Of a DNA stretch of 64,000 nucleotides, positions 22,284-63,872 are shown one piece after another. The stretch is from Euhalothece natronophila Z-M001 (GTDB lineage Bacteria > Cyanobacteriota > Cyanobacteriia > Cyanobacteriales > Rubidibacteraceae): NCBI RefSeq assembly GCF_007904085.1, contig NZ_CP042326.1, positions 3,100,001 through 3,164,000 of the forward strand, written 5' to 3'. The first letter of the stretch is position 1, and each line of letters opens with the position of its first letter. A program made the translations under genes and the position numbers. The notes below the pieces were generated by a model. It was not told where the DNA came from and searched no databases. It saw only the letters and a program-made list of their open reading frames with translations.

Positions 22284-23423
22284 TTAAGCCCCTTGCTGTA
22301 TAAGTTCCATAGCTCTTAACCCTTTCTGATAAAAGGGAAACTTATTGCGATTAAGACTCATCAATTCTTCTACCCAATCTTTGACAAAAATCTGAGTGAT
22401 GATCCAAGTTTGACCATATAAGCCGATTAAGAAATTACTATTTTTCGTCATTTTTTGCTTCACTGTTCTCAGACGACCAAGATATTCTTGTTGACCTTTG
22501 AACCGAATGGATTGCCCCTTTAAACTGGAGACCGTGTACGCGATCGCGCACAACAAAACCAAATTACTTAGTCTTTTTACTGAAGCCTTAGAGCCTTCTA
22601 AATTATAACCTCCGATCTTACAATCCTTAAACATGGCTTCGATTCCCATACGCTTTTGATAAGCTTTGATTGCCGAGTCGAGATCGGGAAGATTAGTCAG
22701 AAGATACCAAGGCTCTTTTTCGACACTTCCTCGGTATTTCTTTTTCCATTTAACGGCAACAGAAAATTGACCGAATCCGTTTTTACCCACTTTTATATTA
22801 GGAAAGAAATGAGAGTCTCCTGGTTGAAAGTCGAAGCAACTAAGAGATTGACAATCTTTTCCTTTGACTTGAATGTTTCGGTCTTTTTTCTGACGCAGAA
22901 CAAAGCCCACTTTCTCTCTCCGTAACCATTTAGCCAGCTCGATGCTATGAAATTCACGGTCTCCTAAAATGATTAATCGATAACCTCTCAGAAGTTTCAA
23001 AATCGGTTTGAGTAAAGCTTTTTGTTCTTTTAAATTACTGGCTCCTTTCTTTGATAAAAATTGCCAATAAATGGGAAGAGCTCGTTTCTGATGAATGAAG
23101 GCGACAACAAACAAGTTTTTATCTTGCCACTGCGTTCTGTCTAAAGCTAAGTAAAGAGGTTGATTACTTGGGTGAATGAGTTTAATAATTTCTTTAATGA
23201 TTGGAAACCAAATTAGGGCCATGGACAGGGAAGGAAGCACTAGAAATCTTTGAAGACGACGGCGACGACTTTCATACTTAATCGGTAAAGGATAGTACGC
23301 AGCTAGTTTTTCGATTTTCACATTTTTATGAACTTGTAACAGCCATACCCAGATTTCTAGGCTTAATAATTGGGCACGAGTGAGTCGATTAGCAAGGTGA
23401 TTGCGATATAATTTTGGTAGCAT
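22284..23423 (-). CDS. IS4-type DDE transposase, intact
   Basis: A full-length transposase of 379 residues. DDE residues are visible in LYLALDRTQW, RLIILGDREFHS and RMGIEAMFKDCKIGGYNLEG, the last being the family's YREG-like region. It ends PFYQKGLRAMELIQQGA, which matches the scrap at 19.6 kb. The element inserted into the chorismate lyase fragment. I could not fix its terminal repeats by eye. Confidence 0.85.
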   Translation of the reverse strand: MLPKLYRNHLANRLTRAQLLSLEIWVWLLQVHKNVKIEKLAAYYPLPIKYESRRRRLQRFLVLPSLSMALIWFPIIKEIIKLIHPSNQPLYLALDRTQWQDKNLFVVAFIHQKRALPIYWQFLSKKGASNLKEQKALLKPILKLLRGYRLIILGDREFHSIELAKWLRREKVGFVLRQKKDRNIQVKGKDCQSLSCFDFQPGDSHFFPNIKVGKNGFGQFSVAVKWKKKYRGSVEKEPWYLLTNLPDLDSAIKAYQKRMGIEAMFKDCKIGGYNLEGSKASVKRLSNLVLLCAIAYTVSSLKGQSIRFKGQQEYLGRLRTVKQKMTKNSNFLIGLYGQTWIITQIFVKDWVEELMSLNRNKFPFYQKGLRAMELIQQGA

Positions 23424-23463
23424 TTTTTAAGTTCATTTTGGTTTCTGCGATCGCACAGTTAGC

Positions 23464-24639
23464 GTGATCGCGCAGCCTGATCTGTTTATTATAAAAGGCT
23501 ATCTACGTCAGCGCTTGAGGCGATTACAACACGATTGTCACCCCGTGAGGCTCATCTATCAATTGGTACAATTGATGGAAAGCGACTATCAAAAACAAAG
23601 TCTTCAAGCTTTCTTGGAACTGTTTCTAAAAGCTCAAGGAACACACCGCCCCCAACACTCAGCACTTAAATCAGCCAGTGCTCTCAGTCGTTTTCTCAAT
23701 CATTACATCTGGTCAGCGCGATCGCTCATCCGCCAAGTCAGACGGATGATTAAGCAACAACTAAGCCACTACCATCCCCGAGGTCGGCGTCCTCACTTAC
23801 AAGTAATCATTGACTTAACAACTTTGGAAAAACGGGGAAAGTTTAAGGGCTATCAAGACCTAGTTCATGTGTTTGATGGCAAAAGAGGATTGCATCTAGT
23901 GGTCATCTATCTGGTAGTGGGAAGGTGGCGTCTTCCATGGAGTTTTCGCATCTATCGAGGAAAAGGACATTCCACTCCAGCACAGTTAGGATTGAAGTTA
24001 GTACGGCAACTACCGCGATGGCTGAAACGCCAGTTTCAGGTCATGGTGTTGGCAGACACAGCTTTTGGTAGCGTCGAATTTCTCAAAGGAATCCGCTCTC
24101 TGAAGCTTCATGCTATTACTGGTGTTCGTCGTGACCGTCTCCTCCAAGATCATCGCCCTCTATGGCAATTACATCAGCCTGGCCAACAAGTCAGGCTTCA
24201 AGGACTTAATTTTCCGGTTAGTGTAGCTTGGTTCTATCTCAAACGAGATGGAGAAAAGAAACGCTCTAAGCGTTATGTTCTCTCCACCAAACCCTTAAAA
24301 GCCAGTACCATTGTTTGGTGGGGAAGACATCGCTGGCAAATTGAGGGATTTTTTAAGACCGCTAAATACCGTTTTGGTCTTCATCGGTTTGCTCAAAAGA
24401 CTCTCAAGGGAATGTATCGTTGGTTGATCTTGTCCTTAGTGGCTTTTTTGCTTGCTCATTGGGGTTATCTTTCTCTTGATACCAAAGAGCTCCCCGATTG
24501 GGGAGTGGCTGCAACCATTATTCTTGAAACTTGCTTGGTGGAATTAGTTATTGCTCTATTGTTAGCGGAAGTTGAGCGTCAACGACCTTTACTGAAACAG
24601 CAGGGATTAGATGTTCAAATTACCAGGTGCAAGATCTGA
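23464..24639 (+). CDS. IS4/IS701-type DDE transposase, intact
   Basis: A second, unrelated transposase of 391 residues. DDE residues lie in VIIDLTTLEKRG, VMVLADTAFGSVEF and WWGRHRWQIEGFFKTAKYRF. It probably starts at GTG 23464. Its 3' end overlaps by 20 bases the truncated end of the IS630-type orfA on the other strand, so this element inserted into that older one. HIP1 sites lie immediately upstream of its start. Confidence 0.8.
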   Translation: MIAQPDLFIIKGYLRQRLRRLQHDCHPVRLIYQLVQLMESDYQKQSLQAFLELFLKAQGTHRPQHSALKSASALSRFLNHYIWSARSLIRQVRRMIKQQLSHYHPRGRRPHLQVIIDLTTLEKRGKFKGYQDLVHVFDGKRGLHLVVIYLVVGRWRLPWSFRIYRGKGHSTPAQLGLKLVRQLPRWLKRQFQVMVLADTAFGSVEFLKGIRSLKLHAITGVRRDRLLQDHRPLWQLHQPGQQVRLQGLNFPVSVAWFYLKRDGEKKRSKRYVLSTKPLKASTIVWWGRHRWQIEGFFKTAKYRFGLHRFAQKTLKGMYRWLILSLVAFLLAHWGYLSLDTKELPDWGVAATIILETCLVELVIALLLAEVERQRPLLKQQGLDVQITRCKI

Positions 24640-25123
24640 GTCTAGGAACTTTCAGTTTCGCTTTTAGTTTATATTTCACCAAATGGTATAGCGTTTTATA
24701 GTTGAGGAAAATCTGGTAATTATCTTCTAACCATTTTTGGATTTCTCCGTAGCTTCTAAATCCTTGTTCTTCTTGTGATAGTCTTTCTTGTAGCTCTGCG
24801 ATATGGCTCTGCCATTTGCCGAAGGCAATCGCGCTTCCTTCTATTTTTGGTGGTCGCCCTCCTTGATCCTCTGGTTCGGTTAATAATCCGTTTACTCCTT
24901 CTTGGCGATAGCTCTTTAACCATCTTTGAATAGTTACCCGATGCACTCCTAAATAAGTCGCTAGATGAGTCACTGTTTTTACTTCACCGGTTTTTAGCAA
25001 ATATAAACCTTGCATTTTCCGAAATTTTGAAAGCTCTTTCTGCTGGGTTTGAAGTTTTTTCAGTTGTGAGGGAGTTTCTTGAATGACGCATTGATAGTTA
25101 ACTCTCATGGCACTTAACTCCAA
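24620..25123 (-). pseudogene. IS630-type transposase N-terminal part, truncated
   Basis: It encodes the helix-turn-helix part of an IS630-family transposase: KTVTHLATYLGVHRVTIQRW and LTEPEDQGGRPPKIEG, then YGEIQKWLEDNYQIFLNYKT. The frame stops after KAKLKVPRLRSCTW; the last residues come from the neighbouring element. The DDE half is missing. Confidence 0.75.
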
Positions 25124-25158
25124 GTCATTTTACTTCCGAGGCATTGTAGCATAAGTTA

Positions 25159-25965
25159 TCAGAGATGGTATAAGGCTTCACTAAATGTATTCAAAGGTCG
25201 ATTTGACCAGATGCGTCTGAATCCTCCTGTCAGTTGATGCCAAACGATGAAGGTATAGGCACAGAAAACTAAAATGAAATGTCTTAAAAGACTTCGTTTG
25301 TCTCTGACTTGATATTCCTTCAGTCCTAAATTTCCCTTCGCTTCTCAGTAGAAAACTTCTACCCAATTTCTTTGGGAATAAGTTTTAACGACCCATTGAG
25401 GAGTTGCTTGGTTAGGTGGAACATTCGTAAGAAAGTAGTCAACTTCTGTTGCTTCAGAAAAGCTAGAAGCATTCATGACGATCGCGATGCTTTTCTTTCC
25501 TTCTAAGCGTGAAATTTCTCCTTCTACTACCGCTACCCAAAAAGTTTTGGGTTTTTCTATTGTCAGTTGAACTTCTGTAAAATCGCTTTTTGAGAGCGAT
25601 GCAGCTAGTTCGTCAACCCGAATGGTTTCCTTAGCATTTCCTGTTTTCTCTAGTTTGACCTTTCGATTTTTGGCAATTCCTCCTAAATAGTTCAGATTTC
25701 TTTCTTCTAGTTGGGAGAGGAAAGTTGTGTTGTTTCCATAACCAGAATCAATCAAAACCATTCCTGGTTTGTTCCCTCTGGGTAAACTACTCCAATTGCG
25801 TTTTTTGCCATCTCTGATAGTTTTTTTCGCCGACTTTCCCCCAATAATTCCCCCAAATATTGTCGAAATCCCTGTTTTTCGGCTTTGGTCTTCAAGACAT
25901 TGTCGAAACGACGACACCATCTTTCAAAGCACGCTGCGCCTCGCAGAAGGAGTAGTTTGTTTCAT
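25159..25965 (-). pseudogene. IS701-type transposase, broken
   Basis: The pieces are in order but damaged. An N-terminal piece lies in one frame (CFERWCRRFDNVLKTKAEKQ, then YLGELLGESRRKKLSEMAKN). The middle jumps to another frame (NKPGMVLIDSGYGNNTTFLS) with internal sequence lost. After WVEVFY an Arg codon has become TGA at 25345-25347, followed in frame by EAKGNLGLKEYQVRDKRS and the normal C-terminus NTFSEALYHL. It cannot make a working protein. Confidence 0.8.
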
Positions 25966-38197: not shown

Positions 38198-39463
38198 TCA
38201 ATGAGAGTTTTGCTCCTTTGATTGAATGGGGGTTGTATTCCGAAATGGATTCCGTCTAACAGTAGCAATTGCCTGTTGAACTGCCATTTTGATATCCTTT
38301 TCATGGGTATCTTTAGCAATTTGGGTTTGATAGGCAATTCCTTCTTCACTTGATGCGTATAAGGGCGGAACTTGATTTAAAGCAAAAGTAATCACATCCA
38401 GTTTTCGCACATCCTTGGTAATGCTAGGAGGATAGGCTTTCATCTGGCGATTGGTTTCCTCTGCTACTAATTTTTCCATAACGTTAATTTTAATTCCTTC
38501 TTCTTCAGGTTGGGATTGTCTGCCAACGTGTTTACGCCATCCTGAAAGGGGAGTGCTTAGAGTTCGAGGAGAAGAAGACTGAAATTGACTAACTTCTCCT
38601 AAAGTTTCATGACTCGTATGGTAGTCAGAGGTTTTGCTATTCAATTGACTTTGATTCCAAGATAAGGGTTCTGTTTGGGCTTTTTGTACTGATTGCCACA
38701 AGTCAGGAACTTCTTTAAATGAAATCAATCCTTGGTTCAAGTAGCGGTGGAGGGTACGCATGATACTGAGAACAGGTTTTTCATTTTCAATGGCGAGATC
38801 CCGCAGAGTTTTTTCGTCTTTCTCAATTGCAGAAAGGTAGTTGGCTAAAGAATACAGTTTTTTAGCTTGTAATTCTTCTTGATTCACGATAATTCCTAAA
38901 TTGGGGGAGTATTTAGTAAACCCTGAGATTACCCACTTTTGCCATAATTGAAATGTCTGTTTTTGAGCTTCTTCTGCTGAACAAGTGGCAGTCCGTAAGA
39001 GGAGATCCTTCCGACAAGGACTTGCCTCCTGTTTTTTGAACATTTGGACTTGACTGATGTTATTAGATGGTAGTTGAGCAAGACTGTACACAATATCAAA
39101 GAGAATTTCTATGATAGTACCTTGAACAATACTTTGAGCTTGATCAGGTGTGATCTGTTTGTCGTGCGTAAAAATAGCAAGAGCAAAATAATCCCAACAC
39201 TCGTGGGAAGATGATAATAATTCTTTTGTGGTCATTCCTTGAGGAATTGCAATTTCACAACCACAGATTTCTAGTTGTCGAAGCCAACGTCGCACCGGGT
39301 GAATTCCGCCCTTTGCCCAAATAATTGAGCCACTGTTGAAATAAATTCCCCAATAGGCAGTATTATCAATTTTAATGTTTAACCGTCCTGTAAATTGAGT
39401 TTGGGCATACTTATTCAGTTTTAGAAATAAATGGCGGTAGTTTAGGGATTGATTCTCACTCAT
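38198..39463 (-). CDS. PatA-N (DUF4388) protein fused to a ComFB domain
   Basis: Residues 8-120 match the PatA/PixG N-terminal domain: QTQFTGRLNIKIDNTAYWGI, HPVRRWLRQLEICGCEI, HECWDYFALAIF and IVQGTIIEILFDIVYSLAQ. A middle region continues the PatA pattern (LSAIEKDEKTLRDLAIENEK, ILRTLHRYLNQGLISF-like MRTLHRYLNQGLISFKEVPD). Where other PatA-type proteins have a receiver, residues 329-405 form a ComFB domain (MEKLVAEETNRQM, KLDVITFALNQVPPLYASSE). ComFB/CdgR proteins have been described as c-di-GMP receptors. The protein may therefore give phototaxis signalling a second-messenger input. It lies about 2 kb from a chemoreceptor gene, separated by an MFS gene. Confidence 0.8.
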   Translation of the reverse strand: MSENQSLNYRHLFLKLNKYAQTQFTGRLNIKIDNTAYWGIYFNSGSIIWAKGGIHPVRRWLRQLEICGCEIAIPQGMTTKELLSSSHECWDYFALAIFTHDKQITPDQAQSIVQGTIIEILFDIVYSLAQLPSNNISQVQMFKKQEASPCRKDLLLRTATCSAEEAQKQTFQLWQKWVISGFTKYSPNLGIIVNQEELQAKKLYSLANYLSAIEKDEKTLRDLAIENEKPVLSIMRTLHRYLNQGLISFKEVPDLWQSVQKAQTEPLSWNQSQLNSKTSDYHTSHETLGEVSQFQSSSPRTLSTPLSGWRKHVGRQSQPEEEGIKINVMEKLVAEETNRQMKAYPPSITKDVRKLDVITFALNQVPPLYASSEEGIAYQTQIAKDTHEKDIKMAVQQAIATVRRNPFRNTTPIQSKEQNSH

Positions 39464-41250: not shown

Positions 41251-41265
41251 ACCTCTCCCACTAAG

Positions 41266-41399
41266 TAGGGCTGTTTCATTCTCGGGGTTAAAAAGTTATT
41301 AGTCATTGGTCATTAGTCATTTGTTAACAAAGGTGTTCCTGAACCCCATCTCCCTATTTCCCCACCTGAGGGGGATTTCAGAAGAATGAAAAGACCCTG
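41266..41399 (+). mobile_element. Candidate MITE with ISAs1-like ends
   Basis: The left end TAGGGCTGTTTCATTCTCGG is almost identical to the left end of the ISAs1-family element at 62672. The right end AGAATGAAAAGACCCTG matches that element's right end with three mismatches. The 134-bp interior holds TAGTCATTGGTCATTAGTCA heptamers and no gene. It looks like a non-autonomous derivative. Confidence 0.55.
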
Positions 41400-41428
41400 C
41401 ACCCCCTAAGGGGTGAGGAGAAAGTGAA

Positions 41429-44400
41429 TTAAATGGTGAATTTATCCACGGTGTTTTCTAGTTGTTGAGCGGTTTCTAGGGCTTCTTGGAAGGAAGCTGA
41501 AAGGGCAGTGGATTGTTCGGAAGTGGCATTGGCGATCGCTGCGACTTCTTTCATGGTTTCCGTCACGGACTGAGATTGTTTAAGTTGTCCTTGACTGGCT
41601 TCGGTAATCCCTGCAACCAGTTGGCTAATTTCCGAGGTAGCTGCCGCGATCGCGTTTAACTCTTCTTTAGCTTCTTGCACTAAGTTGGTTCCCGCACTTA
41701 CTTGGGCAATGGCGCGTTCAGTGACTTTAATCGCTTCACTGGTTTGATTGCGAATTTCTGCAACTAAGTCTTCAATTTCTTTGGTTGCATCTGCCGATTG
41801 TCGGGCAAGGGAACGCACTTCATCAGCAACCACAGCAAAGCCTCGTCCATATTCCCCAGCACGAGTCGCCTCAATAGAGGCATTGAGAGAGAGTAACTGA
41901 GTCTGTTTTGAGAAGTCACTAATGAGGTTAACCACGCGGGAAATTTTCTGAGAAGATTCTCCCAGTTGTCGGATATTGCGACTGGTTTCAGACACCGCAT
42001 CCCGAATGCCTTGAATCCCATCAACAGTACGGTTCATCGCCGCATCCCCAGAAGAAACGGTTTTATTGGATTTTTGCACCGCTTCGTTAATAGCCTGAGC
42101 ATTATTGGCAACATCTTGAGTAGCGTGACTCATTGACTCCACTTGGTTTAAAGCGCCTCCTAAGGCTTGGGATTGTTGGTTTGCCTTCTCAGAGAGTTGT
42201 TTAATCGCGCGATCGCTGTCAGTAGAAGTTTGAGAGACTTTTTCTACAGCTTTCTGCACTTGCACCACAATTTGTCGCAGTCCTTTCAGAGTATTATTAT
42301 AAGCATCCGCGATCGTTCCCAATTCATCATCGGTTACAGGCGCACGGACGGTTAAATCCCCATCTAAAGCAGGACGGACTGCCGTTAATAGTTCAATCGC
42401 TCGTTGTTGTAGGAGTTCTTTCGCCTTTCTTTCCCGTTCGGCAGCTTGGGCTAACTGTTCCGACTGTTCCCGAATTTGCTCTAAAAACTCGGCTTGTTTC
42501 AAAGCAATCCCTAACTGGACTCCAATTTGCCGTAATAGCTTGACCTCCTGTTCTTGCCATTGTCGAGAACCACTATTCTGATAAACCCCTAAAATTCCCC
42601 ACAGTTTTTGGTCTTCAAAGACAGGAACAAGAATATAAGCGCGACATTGGAAGGCCTCTAGCAATTCCAAGTGGCAAGAATCAAACCCCTCTTTGTAAAT
42701 ATCGGGAACAACATGGTTTTCCCCACGGGCATAACGACCGCCTTTATTTTCTTGTAGGTAGGTATCTTTCACCGTCGCTTCATCAGTTCCCACTAGCGCT
42801 TTCCAACCTGTAGCCACTGACTCAGCAACAAATTCACCACTCCAGTCTTCTTTAAATTGATAAATCCCCACGCGATCCGCTTTTAATAAGGCTCGCACTT
42901 CTTGAGTCGTCGTATTAAAAATGTCATCCACTTGTTGAGAACGACGGATTTTATCCACCACCTTAGACACGGCTTGTTCTCGTTCCGCAGCTTCGGCGAG
43001 TTCATTCGATTGATTCTGAATTTGCTCTAGATATTGAGCTTGTTTAAGGGCGACTCCAAATTGGGTGCCCACTTGTCGTGTGAGTTGAACTTCACTATCA
43101 AGCCACTGGCGAGGGCCACTATTTTGATAAACGCCTAGAATGCCCCAAAGCACATCATCTTGAAAAACGGGAACGAGAATATAAGCGCGACATTGGAAGG
43201 TTTCTAATAATTCCACGTGACACTCATCAAAGCCTTCTTGGTAAATATCGGGAACTACATGATTTTGCCCAAGGGCATAACGTCCTCCTTCATTTTCCTT
43301 AAGATAAGTATCTTTAACTTGTGCGTCCTCGGTTCCCACTAAGTCTTTCCAACCTGTAGCCACTGACTCAGCAACAAATTCCCCACTCCAGTCTTCATAA
43401 AACTTATACAGGGCAACGCGATCGGCATTAAGAACGCTTCGCACTTCTTTAGTGGTGTTATCAAAGACGGCGTTAACTTCGGGAGTGCGACGAATCCGAT
43501 CAACCACTTTAGAGACGGTTTTTTCCCGTTCTACCCCTTGGGCGAGTTGATCATTTTTCTCTTGCAGTTCCTCGACAAATTCGGCTTGATTCAGAGCTAC
43601 ACCGAGGGGATCAGCTACTTCCACCATTAAGTCTTTTTCCCCTTCCGTCCATTGTCGGGGGCCACTATTTTGATAGGCGGCAAGGAGTCCCCAAAACTTA
43701 TTGCCTTGAAAGATGGGAACATTAATATAGGCGCGACATTGATACTTTTCTAGTTGGTCGAGGTAGCAACGAGAAAAGCCCATTTCGTAAATGTCATTAA
43801 CGACGCTATATTTTTTCCCTTTGGCGTAACCACCCCCTTTAGTATCTTGGAGATAGGTATCTTCGCTGTCACGGGTGCGTTTATTGCCGCTTAACATTCG
43901 GAAGCTACAATCATTTTTAAGATCTCCAGCCGGATCATTCCCCTCAGGGTTAACCACGGGAGTCCAACCTGTGGTAACGGCTTCAGCGACAAAACCACCA
44001 CTCCAGTCGTCGTTAAAGCGATAAATTGCCACGCGATCGCAGTTTAGGGCGCGTCGAATTTCTTGGGTCGCCACATCAAAAATACTTTCTAAATCCTGAG
44101 ATTGGCGAATCCGAGAAATGAGGGTAACTTTGGTTTGCTGGCGATTTTTTTCTTGTTTAACTTGTTCTTGATAGTCAAAGCTAGCAATTTTGAGAGCCAA
44201 TTCGGTGCTAACCTGGTAAAGCAAGTTTACTAAATCTTCTGACCAGGGTTGACCTGCTTGGGTGCGGTGAACTACTAATAACCCCCATGGCTTGCCATCG
44301 ATGCGGATGATAAAGGCGAGACTGCTTTTAACTTGATATTTCTCTAAAAGTTGTTGTTGATAGGGGGTAGTGCTATTTGGGTCACTGATAGCTACAATTC

Positions 44401-44923
44401 CAGATTCAGTGTATTCAGTGGCTTTATCTTGTCCAAATAGAGTTGCTGGAAGGGTTTCTCCTTTAGCAGGAGTCCAACCGCGCTCAACAACTTCGGCGAT
44501 GACTTTCCCCTGTTCTTCCCCTTCAAAGCGATAAACCAGGCTACGTTGAGAGCCACTTAATTTCATCACCTCTTGACAGACTAAGTTAAGGAGACTGTCT
44601 AAAGATTTGCTATTTTGAATTTCATTGGCAAGGTTTAATAATTCTTCCCGTTGTGCTGGGGCATAGCTTTGATGTCCATTTCCCTCACCATTGTTACTAT
44701 TGGGCTCTTCTAGCCATTGTTCAAAGTTGTGACTAAATTTTTCAATTTCTTGTATTTTATTTAGAACCTCAGTGCGTTTTAATCCTCTCACCCTAGAGAG
44801 TTCTTGCTTTAGCCCTTGTAGGGTTTGCTGAAAAGTTTTTAGTTCAGGATGAGATGATTCAGAATTCGAGAACTCGGAGGACTGCTGTTCTGGAGTTGGG
44901 GAGGAAGTTTCTTTTGTGTACAT
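41429..44923 (-). CDS. Soluble methyl-accepting protein with four GAF domains, three cyanobacteriochrome-like
   Basis: A probable phototaxis receptor of 1164 residues without membrane segments. GAF1 is at about 95-250 and lacks a chromophore Cys. GAF2 (280-450), GAF3 (480-635) and GAF4 (665-815) have the red/green cyanobacteriochrome pattern DRVALYKFYEDWSGEFVAES and YILVPVFQDDVLWGILGVYQ. The bilin site is Cys568-His569 in GAF3 (FDECHVELLE) and Cys750-His751 in GAF4 (FDSCHLELLE). GAF2 has Cys386-Tyr387 (FSRCYLDQLE) plus an insertion with Cys339. A HAMP-like linker (845-895) leads to the signalling domain with the hairpin tip EATRAGEYGRGFAVVADEVR. It is close to PixJ/TaxD1. The CheW-like gene lies 30 bases upstream on the same strand. 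Confidence 0.9.
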   Translation of the reverse strand: MYTKETSSPTPEQQSSEFSNSESSHPELKTFQQTLQGLKQELSRVRGLKRTEVLNKIQEIEKFSHNFEQWLEEPNSNNGEGNGHQSYAPAQREELLNLANEIQNSKSLDSLLNLVCQEVMKLSGSQRSLVYRFEGEEQGKVIAEVVERGWTPAKGETLPATLFGQDKATEYTESGIVAISDPNSTTPYQQQLLEKYQVKSSLAFIIRIDGKPWGLLVVHRTQAGQPWSEDLVNLLYQVSTELALKIASFDYQEQVKQEKNRQQTKVTLISRIRQSQDLESIFDVATQEIRRALNCDRVAIYRFNDDWSGGFVAEAVTTGWTPVVNPEGNDPAGDLKNDCSFRMLSGNKRTRDSEDTYLQDTKGGGYAKGKKYSVVNDIYEMGFSRCYLDQLEKYQCRAYINVPIFQGNKFWGLLAAYQNSGPRQWTEGEKDLMVEVADPLGVALNQAEFVEELQEKNDQLAQGVEREKTVSKVVDRIRRTPEVNAVFDNTTKEVRSVLNADRVALYKFYEDWSGEFVAESVATGWKDLVGTEDAQVKDTYLKENEGGRYALGQNHVVPDIYQEGFDECHVELLETFQCRAYILVPVFQDDVLWGILGVYQNSGPRQWLDSEVQLTRQVGTQFGVALKQAQYLEQIQNQSNELAEAAEREQAVSKVVDKIRRSQQVDDIFNTTTQEVRALLKADRVGIYQFKEDWSGEFVAESVATGWKALVGTDEATVKDTYLQENKGGRYARGENHVVPDIYKEGFDSCHLELLEAFQCRAYILVPVFEDQKLWGILGVYQNSGSRQWQEQEVKLLRQIGVQLGIALKQAEFLEQIREQSEQLAQAAERERKAKELLQQRAIELLTAVRPALDGDLTVRAPVTDDELGTIADAYNNTLKGLRQIVVQVQKAVEKVSQTSTDSDRAIKQLSEKANQQSQALGGALNQVESMSHATQDVANNAQAINEAVQKSNKTVSSGDAAMNRTVDGIQGIRDAVSETSRNIRQLGESSQKISRVVNLISDFSKQTQLLSLNASIEATRAGEYGRGFAVVADEVRSLARQSADATKEIEDLVAEIRNQTSEAIKVTERAIAQVSAGTNLVQEAKEELNAIAAATSEISQLVAGITEASQGQLKQSQSVTETMKEVAAIANATSEQSTALSASFQEALETAQQLENTVDKFTI

Positions 44924-44953: not shown

Positions 44954-45814
44954 TTATGAGGAAAATGCTTTGACAAGAGATTGTGCGTCTAAGATAATGC
45001 TACTGGCTTGGGTTAAATAGCCTTGAACATAAGACAATATGTGATCAGGAAATAACCCTTCTGGGGGTTGCAGTTTTTGCCAGTTGTGCTCTTCAATGGT
45101 TTCTACTTGGCGCACCGCAATGCCAATTTCTTGGTTTTCTACTTGCAGAACAATAATGTTGATATTGGTTGCGATGTTTTCAATCTCCCAGAGAGGTGAG
45201 AACCCTAACATATAGTTTAAATCAACAAGCCATAACATTTCACCCCGCCAATTATGAATCCCTAAGACACTTGCCGGGGTATCTGGAACCGCTAAAATTT
45301 TCTCACCTGAGACACTTAATACTTCTTTAACCGTATTAACGGGTAATAAAGCTGTGTCCTCTAACCCTAAGTGAAACCGCAAAAACCTCTGTCCTTGCTT
45401 ACCTTTAGGGTCTGTTTCTTGATCAGAATCAGAAAATAAAGAGGGAGTAATTTTAACAGAATCTAGCCACCCCTTAAGCTGCCCTTCTGGCTTTATGTTA
45501 TCCCTGACTTGTATCACTTGTAGCCAGCTTGGTATGTCTTCTCCCTTCTGTCGTCCAGAAACTCGAATTTTTTCTACTTGGGTTGGATCGAGTTTAGAAG
45601 CAATTTGCTTGAACAAGTTCAGCATTGATTGCTGATCTGGGGAGTTTTCCTGACCTTCTAGCAATACCAATAGATGTTGTTGCTTTTTGGTGACTCGTGC
45701 CTCAACCCCCTGAGGCTGAAGTTTATAGTTTAAAAATGTGGCAATTAAGTCTGGTTCCCCCTGTTTAGCAAGAGCAATGGCATCTCGTTGACTAATAGAT
45801 TTCGACTGAGGCAT
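44954..45814 (-). CDS. CheW-like adaptor with extended N-terminus
   Basis: The C-terminal 150 residues form a CheW domain that couples receptors to a CheA kinase: LPVNTVKEVLSVSGEKILAV, SVLGIHNWRGEMLWLVDLNY, VLQVENQEIGIAVRQVETIE. The N-terminal 130 residues are unusual for CheW; they have two similar halves with DLIATFLNYKLQPQGVEARV and LLVLLEGQENSPD, a domain seen in PixI/TaxW-type proteins of cyanobacteria. It is the first gene of a two-gene unit with the multi-GAF chemoreceptor. Confidence 0.85.
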   Translation of the reverse strand: MPQSKSISQRDAIALAKQGEPDLIATFLNYKLQPQGVEARVTKKQQHLLVLLEGQENSPDQQSMLNLFKQIASKLDPTQVEKIRVSGRQKGEDIPSWLQVIQVRDNIKPEGQLKGWLDSVKITPSLFSDSDQETDPKGKQGQRFLRFHLGLEDTALLPVNTVKEVLSVSGEKILAVPDTPASVLGIHNWRGEMLWLVDLNYMLGFSPLWEIENIATNINIIVLQVENQEIGIAVRQVETIEEHNWQKLQPPEGLFPDHILSYVQGYLTQASSIILDAQSLVKAFSS

Positions 45815-46151: not shown

Positions 46152-47477
46152 ATGATTAGAAAAGAAGAAGATCAAATTACCGCAGGATCTAATTTAAGTG
46201 ACCAGTTTTTTTTATTAATCCATGAGCTTTTACAAGAAATTGTTGAGTACAAAAAAAAGCAATTTACAGGGGCTCTAATTATTAACACACCTCAACAAAA
46301 GCAATGGTGTTTGTACTTTGGGATGGGACAATTACTCTGGGCAAGTGGTAGCGAACATCCGAGAAGACGATGGCGAAGACAACTAGCGCGGGCGTTTCAG
46401 CAAAATTCCTTTGACAATTATTATTCAGAAGAGTATTTGCGAGGAAAAGATAGTTATGAATGTTGGGATTTTCATCTCCTTTTAGCTTTACACAAACGTA
46501 AAATCATTAGTGCTGAACAAGTAAGAGCAGTTATGAGTGGAGTAATTGCTGAGGTTATTTTTGATCTCAATCGTCAAGGAGTTGCTTTATGTAATAGTGA
46601 AAAAGCTTATCCTAATGAGCCAAATAACTGTGGAAAACAGGTTTTTACTAGAGAATGGAAAGCAGGCCTACGACCATCTCAACAAATGGTAATTCCTCCG
46701 AGTTGGGGAACAGAGACAATAGCGACTCTTCGTGCTGGTGTAGATAGCTGGAAGCAGTGGCAAAACGCAGGACTGTTGAATATTTCTCCTGACCAGGCAC
46801 CGCGTCTATTACGATTAAAAGAGTTAGAAGAGAAAACTTCTCCTGGGGTTTATAAAAACTTAGTGAAATTAGTTACAGGGGAGCAGACTTTACGTGATTT
46901 ATCCGTATTAATGAAAAAAGAACCGATCAAAATTGCGCGATCGCTGCAGCCTTATATCCGTGAAGATATTATTTCCCTAGAAACCGTTTCCGACTTAGCC
47001 ACTCCTGAAGCAACAGCTGAAACTATTACTCAAAAACAAAATCTAAACCGACGCGCTGAAGATGATGAAAAAACTGGTTCAAAAGATTATTCTACTCCCT
47101 CGAATCAACGCCCTCTGATTGCCTTTGTTGATGATAGCGAGCAAAGTCTGCAAATTATGGAAAATATTATTACCAAAGGTGGTTATGAGTTTCTTGGAAT
47201 TAATAATCCAACAGAGGCTATCCCTTGCTTATTAGAGAAAAAACCGCAATTGCTTTTTCTTGATTTAATTATGCCCAATACGAGTGGCTATGAATTATGT
47301 AGCCAACTCCGTAAAATTTCCTCTTTTAAGAATCTTCCGATTGTTATCGTGACAGGAAATGATGGAATTGTTGATCGGATGCGAGCCAAGGTAGTGGGAG
47401 CTAGTGATTTTATTTCCAAACCCATTGATCGCTCCCAAGTTCTAACTTTAGCTCTACAATATATTCAGGGTAAGTGA
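46152..47477 (+). CDS. PatA-type response regulator (DUF4388 plus receiver)
   Basis: The N-terminal PatA domain (KKKQFTGALIINTPQQKQWC, GQLLWASGSEHPRRRWRRQL, YECWDFHLLLAL) matches the paralogue at 38.2-39.5 kb. A helical middle (KNLVKLVTGEQTLRDLSVLM) precedes a C-terminal receiver domain at about residues 322-440 with the phospho-Asp in LLFLDLIMPNTSGYELC, the Thr in PIVIVTGNDG and Lys in ASDFISKPID. PixG, PilG and PatA share this order; they act as the first response regulator of motility or heterocyst-pattern pathways. It is divergent from the CheW/receptor pair, so all four proteins probably belong to one pathway. No CheA or CheY gene is in the window. Confidence 0.9.
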   Translation: MIRKEEDQITAGSNLSDQFFLLIHELLQEIVEYKKKQFTGALIINTPQQKQWCLYFGMGQLLWASGSEHPRRRWRRQLARAFQQNSFDNYYSEEYLRGKDSYECWDFHLLLALHKRKIISAEQVRAVMSGVIAEVIFDLNRQGVALCNSEKAYPNEPNNCGKQVFTREWKAGLRPSQQMVIPPSWGTETIATLRAGVDSWKQWQNAGLLNISPDQAPRLLRLKELEEKTSPGVYKNLVKLVTGEQTLRDLSVLMKKEPIKIARSLQPYIREDIISLETVSDLATPEATAETITQKQNLNRRAEDDEKTGSKDYSTPSNQRPLIAFVDDSEQSLQIMENIITKGGYEFLGINNPTEAIPCLLEKKPQLLFLDLIMPNTSGYELCSQLRKISSFKNLPIVIVTGNDGIVDRMRAKVVGASDFISKPIDRSQVLTLALQYIQGK

Positions 47478-51835: not shown

Positions 51836-52279
51836 TTACAAGAAATCCCCCTCCTGAAGGTTGGGGGTCCCTTGAATACAGTCTGGTTTGACTTGGGGAA
51901 ACACAAAGCTCCTCATCCTTTTCTTGAATCTAGGAAAACCAAATCCTCGATTCCACATCTTAACAAAAGCCTCTTCCAAGACCTTTATAGTTTGTTGGAG
52001 GACTTGAGATTGTGGAACTTTTAAGCGAGGAAACTTTTTCTTCGCTTGTCCTAAACTTTTACACTGGTTGGCATAAGTCGGTCTAGGAGCTTCAGCAGGA
52101 ATGATATACTCGGAATCAAGAGAGCAACGGTCAATTGGACATTTTCTAGAATTAACCCAGTCTTTACGCTCTCTCAAAGCATAGTTATAAACCGACTTAC
52201 AGACATCTAACCATTCATCAATGGTAGAAGCCTGCTGTTTATTGACTTTGAGCTTAAATTGGTAGTTGAGACTGAGCAT
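51836..52279 (-). pseudogene. tnpB: Truncated IS200/IS605-family tnpB (N-terminal third)
   Basis: It encodes the TnpB N-terminus: LSLNYQFKLKVNKQQASTID, VYNYALRERKDWVNS, GQAKKKFPRLKVPQSQVLQQ, VKMWNRGFGFPRFKKRMRSF and VFPQVK, then diverges and stops. The RuvC-like nuclease domain and zinc finger are gone. It points toward, and against, the plus-strand relic next to it, so two different elements or an inversion are involved. Confidence 0.85.
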
Positions 52280-62671: not shown

Positions 62672-63872
62672 CAGGGCTGTTTCATTCTCGGGGTAAAATT
62701 GTAAAAGTAAAGCGCGATCGCGCAACTTGAACCATGAGCGCGATCGCGCATTTTTAGAAAAATTTCTAAGATGTCTAGCTTAATCAGTTACTTAAAACAA
62801 GTCAAGGACTGGCGAGATTCCAGTGGACAAAGACATCCCCTATGGTGGATACTCTTAATTGTTATTTTAGGGCTAATGGTAGGTTGTTTAAGCTATAGAG
62901 ATCTATCTGCTTTTGCCAACAATCATCATGACTATCTTCTTCGCCTTGCGAAAAATCCGCAACTTAAAGTCCCATCCTATTCCACCATTAGAAGAATAAT
63001 GATGGGAATAGAAAACGACAATTTAATTCCAATTTTTAATCAATGGGCAACTCAATTATCCTCAAAAGAAGAAAATCCAGATTGGATCGCGATCGATGGC
63101 AAGAGTATCAAATCAACTTTAACTGATTACTACGGAAATAAACAGAATTTTGCTTCAATTGTCTCTTGGTTTTCTCAAGAAAATGGACTCGTTTTAGCTT
63201 TGGAAAAATTGGAAAATAAAAAGACTTCAGAAATTCACTGTGTTCGAGAAATGGTGGACAACACACTTTTATCAAATCAAGTTTTGACCCGAGATGCTGT
63301 CCACTGTCAAAAAGAAACAATTAAAACAATTAATCGCTCTCATAATGATTATGTAATTGCCGTTAAGAAAAATCAACCTAAATTGTACAACAGTTTAGAA
63401 GAAATCGCTCATAATCAAATTTCTTATCAGGAAGATATCCGAACAGAAACCAGTCACGGACGACGAATTACTCGAACTGTATCTATCTTTAGAATTCCAG
63501 AAACTCTTCAAGAAGTTTGGGTCAATAGTCAGTGTTTTATCAAAGTAGAAAGGAAAGGCCCTCGAAAAAATAAGCCTTATCATCAAATTGTTTATTATTT
63601 GAGCAGTTGCTACCAAACTGCGCAAGATTTTAGCCAAAAAATTCAGGGACATTGGACAATCGAAAATCAGCTACATTGGGTAAAAGATGTAATTTTTAAG
63701 GAAGATATCTCCCCCCAAAGAGCCAAAATTCCTGCGGTGAATTTTTCGATTTTAAAAACCATTTGCCTTAATATTTTCCGACTTTTAGGCTTTTTATCAA
63801 TTACCGAAGGGCGAAGATGGCTTGGACAGAGGCTTTGGCTACTCCCCATTTTGATAGAATGAAACAGCCCTG
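62672..63872 (+). mobile_element. Complete ISAs1-family insertion sequence
   Basis: Perfect 17-bp terminal inverted repeats: CAGGGCTGTTTCATTCT at 62672-62688 and AGAATGAAACAGCCCTG at 63856-63872. The element is 1201 bp with one transposase. I could not find a clean target duplication (left flank CTTAGCAAGG, right flank CTTCCTGAAA), so the flanks may have rearranged. Its left end is duplicated at 41.27 kb. Confidence 0.9.
62771..63862 (+). CDS. ISAs1-family transposase
   Basis: A full-length 363-residue transposase of the DDE_Tnp_1-associated type. The N-terminal domain has DWRDSSGQRHPLWWILLIVI and LSYRDLSAFANNH. DDE residues lie in WIAIDGKSIKST, VLTRDAVHCQKETI and HWTIENQLHWVKDVIFKED. No internal stop; ends RLWLLPILIE within the right inverted repeat region. 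Probably active. Confidence 0.92.
   Translation: MSSLISYLKQVKDWRDSSGQRHPLWWILLIVILGLMVGCLSYRDLSAFANNHHDYLLRLAKNPQLKVPSYSTIRRIMMGIENDNLIPIFNQWATQLSSKEENPDWIAIDGKSIKSTLTDYYGNKQNFASIVSWFSQENGLVLALEKLENKKTSEIHCVREMVDNTLLSNQVLTRDAVHCQKETIKTINRSHNDYVIAVKKNQPKLYNSLEEIAHNQISYQEDIRTETSHGRRITRTVSIFRIPETLQEVWVNSQCFIKVERKGPRKNKPYHQIVYYLSSCYQTAQDFSQKIQGHWTIENQLHWVKDVIFKEDISPQRAKIPAVNFSILKTICLNIFRLLGFLSITEGRRWLGQRLWLLPILIE

Follow-up and report, generated by a model that had tools for sequence, protein, structure and literature searches.

A probable soluble PixJ/PtxD-type chemoreceptor with a candidate insert-Cys cyanobacteriochrome domain in Euhalothece natronophila

Cyanobacterial photoreceptors of the PixJ/PtxD type, the closest described systems to the gene considered here, are believed to influence type IV pili by way of CheA/CheW and CheY-like regulators (PMC5812497, partial text). 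Some cyanobacteriochrome (CBCR) GAF domains are of the insert-Cys kind, recognised by an insertion loop that carries a second Cys, by a loosely defined CXXR/K motif, by conserved Asp and Tyr residues and by a Leu at position VII; the second Cys adds to C10 of the bilin in a bond that light breaks, NpR1597g2 being the exception (PMC5240096, partial text). Here we describe a chemoreceptor gene in a stretch of 64,000 nucleotides (the window) from Euhalothece natronophila Z-M001, positions 3,100,001 to 3,164,000 of NZ_CP042326.1, which is part of one contig of a five-contig genome of 3.5 Mb (G000). We take the source genus to be unicellular and of a hypersaline lineage. In our judgement the gene probably encodes a soluble PixJ/PtxD-type photoreceptor in which the second GAF domain is of the insert-Cys kind, the third and fourth are single-Cys red/green domains derived by duplication, and the signalling domain of a methyl-accepting chemotaxis protein (MCP) acts through Che proteins on type IV pili.

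Architecture of the receptor and identity of GAF2

The receptor gene and its parts are as follows.

41429..44923, minus strand: CBCR-type chemoreceptor gene, 1164 amino acids, GAF1-GAF2-GAF3-GAF4-HAMP-like-MCP (open reading frame and Pfam)
44156..44635, minus strand: GAF1, residues about 97-256, without the canonical bilin Cys (sequence; 23-26% identical to GAF2-4)
43568..44149, minus strand: GAF2, residues 259-452, insert-Cys cyanobacteriochrome domain (motifs, alignment, tree, predicted structure)
43862..43963, minus strand: GAF2 segment with the 22-residue insert, residues 321-354 (compared with GAF3 and GAF4; low-confidence loop in the model)
43907..43909, minus strand: codon of Cys339, candidate second bilin ligand, in C-S-F-R (alignment column; CXXR/K motif, PMC5240096, partial text)
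43763..43768, minus strand: codons of Cys386-Tyr387, the canonical bilin Cys of GAF2 and the Tyr that follows it (aligned rows)
43013..43534, minus strand: GAF3, residues 464-637, single-Cys red/green-type, C568-H569 (alignment, tree)
42476..42988, minus strand: GAF4, residues 646-816, single-Cys red/green-type, C750-H751 (alignment, tree)
42272..42364, minus strand: HAMP-like stretch, residues 854-884 (sub-threshold Pfam match)
41534..42001, minus strand: MCP signalling domain, residues 975-1130 (PF00015, E 9.9e-41)

The original prediction, made from the letters of the DNA, had placed the open reading frame exactly, had given no strand, and had read Cys-His in GAF3 and GAF4 and, in GAF2, Cys-Tyr with an insertion holding Cys339, all of which we see. 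The insert of GAF2 can be counted on the sequence: 34 residues separate the conserved Trp from the DTYL motif, as against 12 in GAF3 and in GAF4, so that the insert, with Cys339, is 22 residues long. Within it C339-S-F-R342 fits the CXXR/K of insert-Cys domains, and D355-T-Y-L358 fits the published DTYL, with Asp355, Tyr357 and Leu358 (at position VII) all present. When GAF2 was aligned with 49 public relatives, the Cys339 column held Cys in 47 of the 50 rows, some Cys stood in the loop in 49 and CXXR/K in 32, and the canonical Cys (Cys386) and the Tyr next to it were each found in all 50. The motif and the conserved column support Cys339 as a candidate second bilin ligand, as originally proposed. 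We also considered a DXCF identity for GAF2 and rejected it, as the motif reads DTYL, without Cys. In a separate set of proteins of about 1570-1600 amino acids (L195-L198, L201 and L078), the insert-Cys GAF has a third Cys just before DTYL, as in QEICDTYL, and retains Cys-Tyr.

Together with the Cys339 column, full-length matches in two same-genus genomes (83% identical in G002 and 79% in G004, among the five, G001 to G005, that were searched with the receptor) establish that the open reading frame and its motifs are real and not a product of chance. The Cys, the insert and the Tyr of GAF2 are all retained in the same-genus orthologues. The G002 copy (L002) has one in-frame TAA stop, which may reflect an error in sequencing or a genuine break in the gene, and its open frame starts inside the N-terminal region. 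Far weaker best matches were found in G003 (E 1e-58) and G005 (E 7e-121, spanning residues 661-1163 only). The G001 orthologue (L187, 7188-11858) is longer, with 1557 amino acids and six GAF stretches; its extra GAFs are one more insert-Cys GAF and another copy of GAF3, a gain of colour-sensing units.

The protein has the make-up of the PixJ/PtxD type, CBCR GAF domains fused to an MCP domain. No transmembrane segment was found in it, in keeping with the original prediction: its maximum 19-residue hydropathy is 1.41, compared with 2.51 in the neighbouring MFS transporter, which served as control. Its cysteines lie at residues 116, 295, 339, 386, 396, 568, 578, 750 and 760, and the sequence of GAF1 has none where a bilin would attach; GAF1 is therefore predicted not to bind bilin and not to be a light sensor. 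GAF3 and GAF4 both combine Cys-His with a short loop, no second Cys in an insert or a DXCF motif, and Phe at positions III and X (in beta2 and alpha4), and in the tree they group with AnPixJg2, NpR6012g4 and other single-Cys GAFs that have Cys-His (support 81/85). By these sequence features they should be red/green sensors. They are 73% identical to each other, while GAF2 is 44-47% identical to either, and a genus-level group of GAF3 and GAF4 has support of 98/95, which bears out the suggestion that the two arose by duplication.

An AlphaFold2 model of GAF2, built on 50 sequences, reaches a mean predicted local distance difference test score (pLDDT) of 81.1. Its top fold match is AnPixJg2 (3w2z; Foldseek E 1.9e-18; Z 24.1, root-mean-square deviation 1.8, 172 aligned residues), and the closest solved folds are cyanobacteriochromes, either single-Cys or other CBCRs. 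A search of the PDB with GAF2 and GAF3 likewise placed NpR6012g4 and AnPixJg2 closest. As to a solved insert-Cys structure, none of the five PDB matches for which the profile search gave the alignment in full covered the insert.

In a careful 45-row tree, computed on a core alignment of 156 columns that omits the insert and the Tyr/His position, GAF2 and three orthologues lie inside an 18-row group made up entirely of insert-Cys GAFs (support 89/71). The original expectation that GAF2, GAF3 and GAF4 are of cyanobacteriochrome type holds on this tree, where all three fall among cyanobacteriochromes; the finer placement of GAF2 stands only at the support just given, and other arrangements are not rejected. 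Several observations, indeed, count against the insert-Cys reading. Domain residues 82-96 of the model, the insert after Cys339, have pLDDT below 50, which leaves a reach of Cys339 to the bilin conjectural; two of the 20 insert-Cys rows fall outside the 18-row group, whose support is moderate; approximately unbiased (AU) tests on the careful tree leave standing both a union of GAF2 with GAF3/GAF4 (p 0.179) and, one Cys-His row being left out, a union of GAF2 with the single-Cys red/green GAFs (p 0.203); and for a quick 92-row tree the arrangement of GAF2 with GAF3/GAF4 has a higher likelihood than the free tree (p 0.692). It is conceivable from these tests that GAF2 is a local derivative of the GAF3/GAF4 ancestor that gained its insert and Cys-Tyr independently, by origin in place or by copying, and that may bind bilin by Cys386 alone and be fluorescent or red-absorbing. 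NpF2164g5, a single-Cys domain with Cys-Tyr, has been described as strongly fluorescent, with photoconversion not detected (PMC9378818, partial text). We nevertheless regard a local origin as improbable: the insert occupies the same site as in the relatives, where the loop often has the same C-x-x-R/K motif (the 32 rows above), the free careful tree nests GAF2 in the all-insert-Cys group, and the same-genus orthologues have kept all three features. The insert-Cys placement of GAF2 is favoured by the tree and not proven by it. The 156-column core is too short to decide, and the assignment is carried by the insert, its motif and the Tyr.

A tyrosine common to insert-Cys domains

The original prediction treated the chromophore site of GAF2, with its Cys-Tyr, as altered. 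A survey of GAF domains did not bear this out, as Cys-Tyr is the state of all classified insert-Cys GAFs. Domains were extracted from 170 loci, giving 525 rows that include four from the window and five typed PDB rows; locus rows that duplicated another exactly were taken out, 65 partial rows and 63 without the canonical Cys were dropped before counting, and 397 were counted. Tyr follows the canonical Cys in 174 of 174 insert-Cys GAFs, and the other 223 GAFs with a canonical Cys have His (191), Tyr (27) or something else (5). Near-copies (at least 90% identical) were removed only in a recount, also without the PDB rows (n=318), in which Tyr was found in 147/147 insert-Cys GAFs as against 24/171 others. 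An earlier count restricted to canonical-Cys rows had given 161/161. The sample leaned to relatives of GAF2; a second one, with the Cys-His GAF3 as query, had Tyr in all 18 of its insert-Cys GAFs, among them the window's own and three same-genus rows. A cruder pattern scan had read L102 as non-Cys-Tyr and left four rows unreadable (L090, L131 and two in L127); when these exceptions were checked by alignment, L102, L090 and L131 were all Cys-Tyr, and L127 gave no classified row. Because the pair is constant in classified insert-Cys GAFs, we rejected the idea that it is a decayed site.

The same pair is seen in likely orthologues of characterised domains. NpF2164 (PtxD) has seven GAFs, two of them second-Cys domains (PMC5812497, partial text). 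Three Nostoc proteins (L115, L133 and L139) also have seven GAFs, of which the second and third are insert-Cys domains and the fifth is a single-Cys Cys-Tyr domain, and the insert Cys of their third GAF lies at residue 549, compared with the published C546 of NpF2164 (PMC5240096, partial text). By sequence these are likely NpF2164 orthologues. L080, L117 and L118, whose insert Cys at 298 has the published number of NpR1597g2 (same source, partial text), are likely to be orthologues of NpR1597; four more of that type have it at 288-295. All the NpF2164-like and NpR1597-like insert-Cys domains carry Cys-Tyr. PMC5240096 describes NpF2164g3 with 'CH motifs', and the evidence for Tyr presented here comes from the likely orthologues.

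An independent-pairs test of insert against Tyr on the tree was uninformative, as starred branches offered only one pair. The data also do not reject the view that insert-Cys GAFs arose once (p 0.285). The association is probably one inherited event and may simply be a matter of shared ancestry. With a single origin standing and so few independent pairs, Tyr is a strong label of the class and no proof of functional coupling. The rule could serve in finding and classifying insert-Cys domains, and it draws attention to a position that could be examined directly for its part in the dual-Cys photocycle. We found no earlier statement of it in a partial search of the literature and do not claim it as new. 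One could go further and propose, tentatively and with more doubt than confidence, that throughout cyanobacteria the insert-Cys mechanism requires the Tyr next to the bilin Cys as its partner (it might, for instance, stack against the C ring during the attack of Cys339 on C10), and that the receptor weighs near-UV hazard against red/green light in one chemoreceptor with dispersed signalling genes.

Predicted colours of the light-sensing domains

At the tuning positions I, III and X, GAF2 has A299, F311 and Y394. The same A/F/Y set is found in 3/3 NpF2164g2-like and 7/7 shown NpR1597g2-like domains, which are of near-UV/blue type, whereas the violet/orange NpF2164g3-like domains have V/V/F (3/3). 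On the strength of this match to the near-UV/blue types, and of the difference from NpF2164g3, we lean towards a near-UV dark state for GAF2 with a blue or green photoproduct. The original prediction that GAF2 would have a different colour from GAF3 and GAF4 is supported to this extent; the shift it expected, to the blue, we would now place in the near-UV. The published numbering gives C/F/Y for UG1, a near-UV/green domain that shares F/Y at III and X with GAF2, and L/Y/L for UG2, also near-UV/green (PMC5240096, partial text). A/F/Y is thus suggestive and not the sole near-UV set, which tells against a firm reading of the colour.

GAF2 might instead be a violet/orange insert-Cys domain, as NpF2164g3 is, with which it shares lineage and motifs; in the careful tree a 15-row group (89/84) holds GAF2 and the NpF2164g3-like domain and excludes the NpF2164g2-like one. 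We think this unlikely in view of the residues at I, III and X, where the NpF2164g3-like V/V/F faces A/F/Y in GAF2. Moreover, F684V alone left UG1 without a normal photocycle, and the violet/orange states were obtained with F684V plus Y777F or V (PMC5240096, partial text).

Under the near-UV reading of GAF2 that we prefer, Cys386 would hold phycocyanobilin, and in the dark state Cys339 of the insert would add to C10 of the bilin, shorten its conjugation and so give near-UV absorption. Light would isomerise the bilin and break the Cys339 bond, as in most characterised relatives, to yield a blue- or green-absorbing photoproduct. For UG1 and UG2, replacement of the second Cys is published to give a red-shifted, poorly switching form (590-620 nm). 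GAF2 would then read near-UV against blue/green and GAF3 and GAF4 red against green, and the balance between them would set movement.

Gene neighbourhood and comparison with known systems

Two genes beside the receptor gene encode potential signalling partners.

44954..45814, minus strand: CheW-domain protein, 286 amino acids, 30 bp upstream of the receptor gene and on the same strand (PF01584)
46152..47477, plus strand: PatA-type response regulator, DUF4388/PATAN and receiver, divergent (PF00072; DUF4388 sub-threshold)

The CheW gene and the receptor gene are likely to form one operon. In G001 this first CheW (73% identical) immediately precedes the receptor, as it does in G004 (70%), where the contig begins within it; in G002 (L188) only its last 89 residues match (83% identical), and it seems truncated. 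A PatA-like gene, 63-64% identical, is divergent at the same place in G001 and G002; in G004 the contig does not extend to that place. The receptor, a CheA and a second, short CheW are contiguous in that order in G001 (L187), G002 (L188) and G004 (L189), the CheA of G002 and G004 being 74% and 72% identical to that of G001 and the second CheW 64% and 61%. By Pfam, the G001 CheA is a hybrid with Hpt, HATPase, CheW and receiver domains and the second protein is a CheW. The full CheW-CheA-PATAN cluster is present in one of the three relatives (G001). In the window genome the first CheW and the PatA-like gene are adjacent to the receptor, and the other two lie elsewhere on the same contig: CheA (C1:2963947-2967033, 77% identical to that of G001) about 174 kb away, and the second CheW (C1:2919965-2920429, 66%) about 221 kb away.

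The receptor gene abuts a convergent MFS transporter gene in the window. In G001 and G002 the MFS transporter (66% and 86%) and a gene that we take to be ispG-like (93% and 91%) flank a PATAN-ComFB gene away from the receptor cluster, from which we infer that a rearrangement joined two unrelated neighbourhoods in the window genome. The receptor operon is broken up there, with the breakpoint between the MFS gene and the receptor gene, at window positions 41251-41428. By Pfam, the window also carries, at 1062-2891, 22284-25920, 51836-52279 and 62771-63862, a group II intron reverse transcriptase that has an HNH domain, together with several transposase genes or gene fragments, consistent with a rearranging genome.

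That CheA and the second CheW do not stand beside the receptor speaks against the proposed signalling route. The receptor could have become unwired from a working phototaxis pathway when they moved off, and the convergent MFS neighbour, the distances to both genes and the several transposases in the window would all suit such a history. We consider this quite unlikely, as both are intact open reading frames with the identities to their G001 homologues given above, and Che proteins can act in trans. One ferredoxin-dependent bilin reductase, two heme oxygenases and three T2SSE-family (PilT/PilB-type) ATPases in the window genome fit a supply of bilin and type IV pili. In the wired pathway that we favour, the MCP domain would relay the combined colour signal by way of CheW to a PixL-like CheA, which would signal in turn to the PatA/CheY proteins that regulate type IV pili.

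Other observations concern related genes. The PATAN-ComFB gene of the window (38198-39463, minus strand) encodes a fusion of PATAN (DUF4388) and ComFB, with DUF4388 sub-threshold in the window and both domains above the cut-off in the G001 and G002 homologues; among the matches listed in 60 genomes, the fusion is full-length only in G000, G001 and G002. ComFB is reported to be a c-di-AMP receptor required for pilus biogenesis (PMC12313861, partial text), and the fusion may accordingly link pilus control with a second messenger. A further CBCR-MCP receptor is present in G001 (L190, 6098-9508), with, by eye, two insert-Cys Cys-Tyr GAFs, one DXCF and one Cys-His GAF, followed by a CheA relative that is 36% identical to the CheA of the window genome. 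With the receptor as query in the window genome, one other match among those listed reaches the MCP end, over residues 820-1163 only.

The receptor probably belongs to the known PixJ/PtxD-type class, with an insert-Cys domain. AnPixJ of Anabaena/Nostoc PCC 7120 has four GAFs, and AnPixJg2 is among the closest PDB matches of GAF2 and GAF3; AnPixJg2 (3W2Z) is a single-Cys red/green domain with Cys-His, whereas the second GAF here is insert-Cys with Cys-Tyr. PixJ1 of Synechocystis PCC 6803 (the tax1 locus) is also a CBCR-MCP receptor accompanied by CheW, CheA and a PATAN-CheY, but spans the membrane with two transmembrane segments and has a single GAF that binds bilin (PMC5812497, partial text), as against no such segment and a probable three bilin-binding GAFs in the present protein. 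The PtxD receptor (NpF2164) from Nostoc punctiforme shares the tandem GAFs with MCP and adjacent Che genes, and differs in having seven GAFs, at least six of them bilin-binding and two of them second-Cys domains (PMC5812497, partial text), compared with four GAFs, one insert-Cys domain and split Che genes here. GAF2 itself resembles UG1 (Mbr3854g4), UG2 (Mbl3738g2), UB1 (NpR1597g2) and VO1 (NpF2164g3) in its Cys-bearing insertion loop, CXXR/K, DTYL and Leu at position VII (PMC5240096, partial text); the insert differs in length from those of UG1 and UG2, with a Cys-to-Tyr spacing of 18 in GAF2, 28 in UG1 and 16 in UG2 by the published numbering. The four insert-Cys domains characterised in PMC5240096 come from two filamentous species, and GAF2 adds a candidate insert-Cys domain from another lineage.

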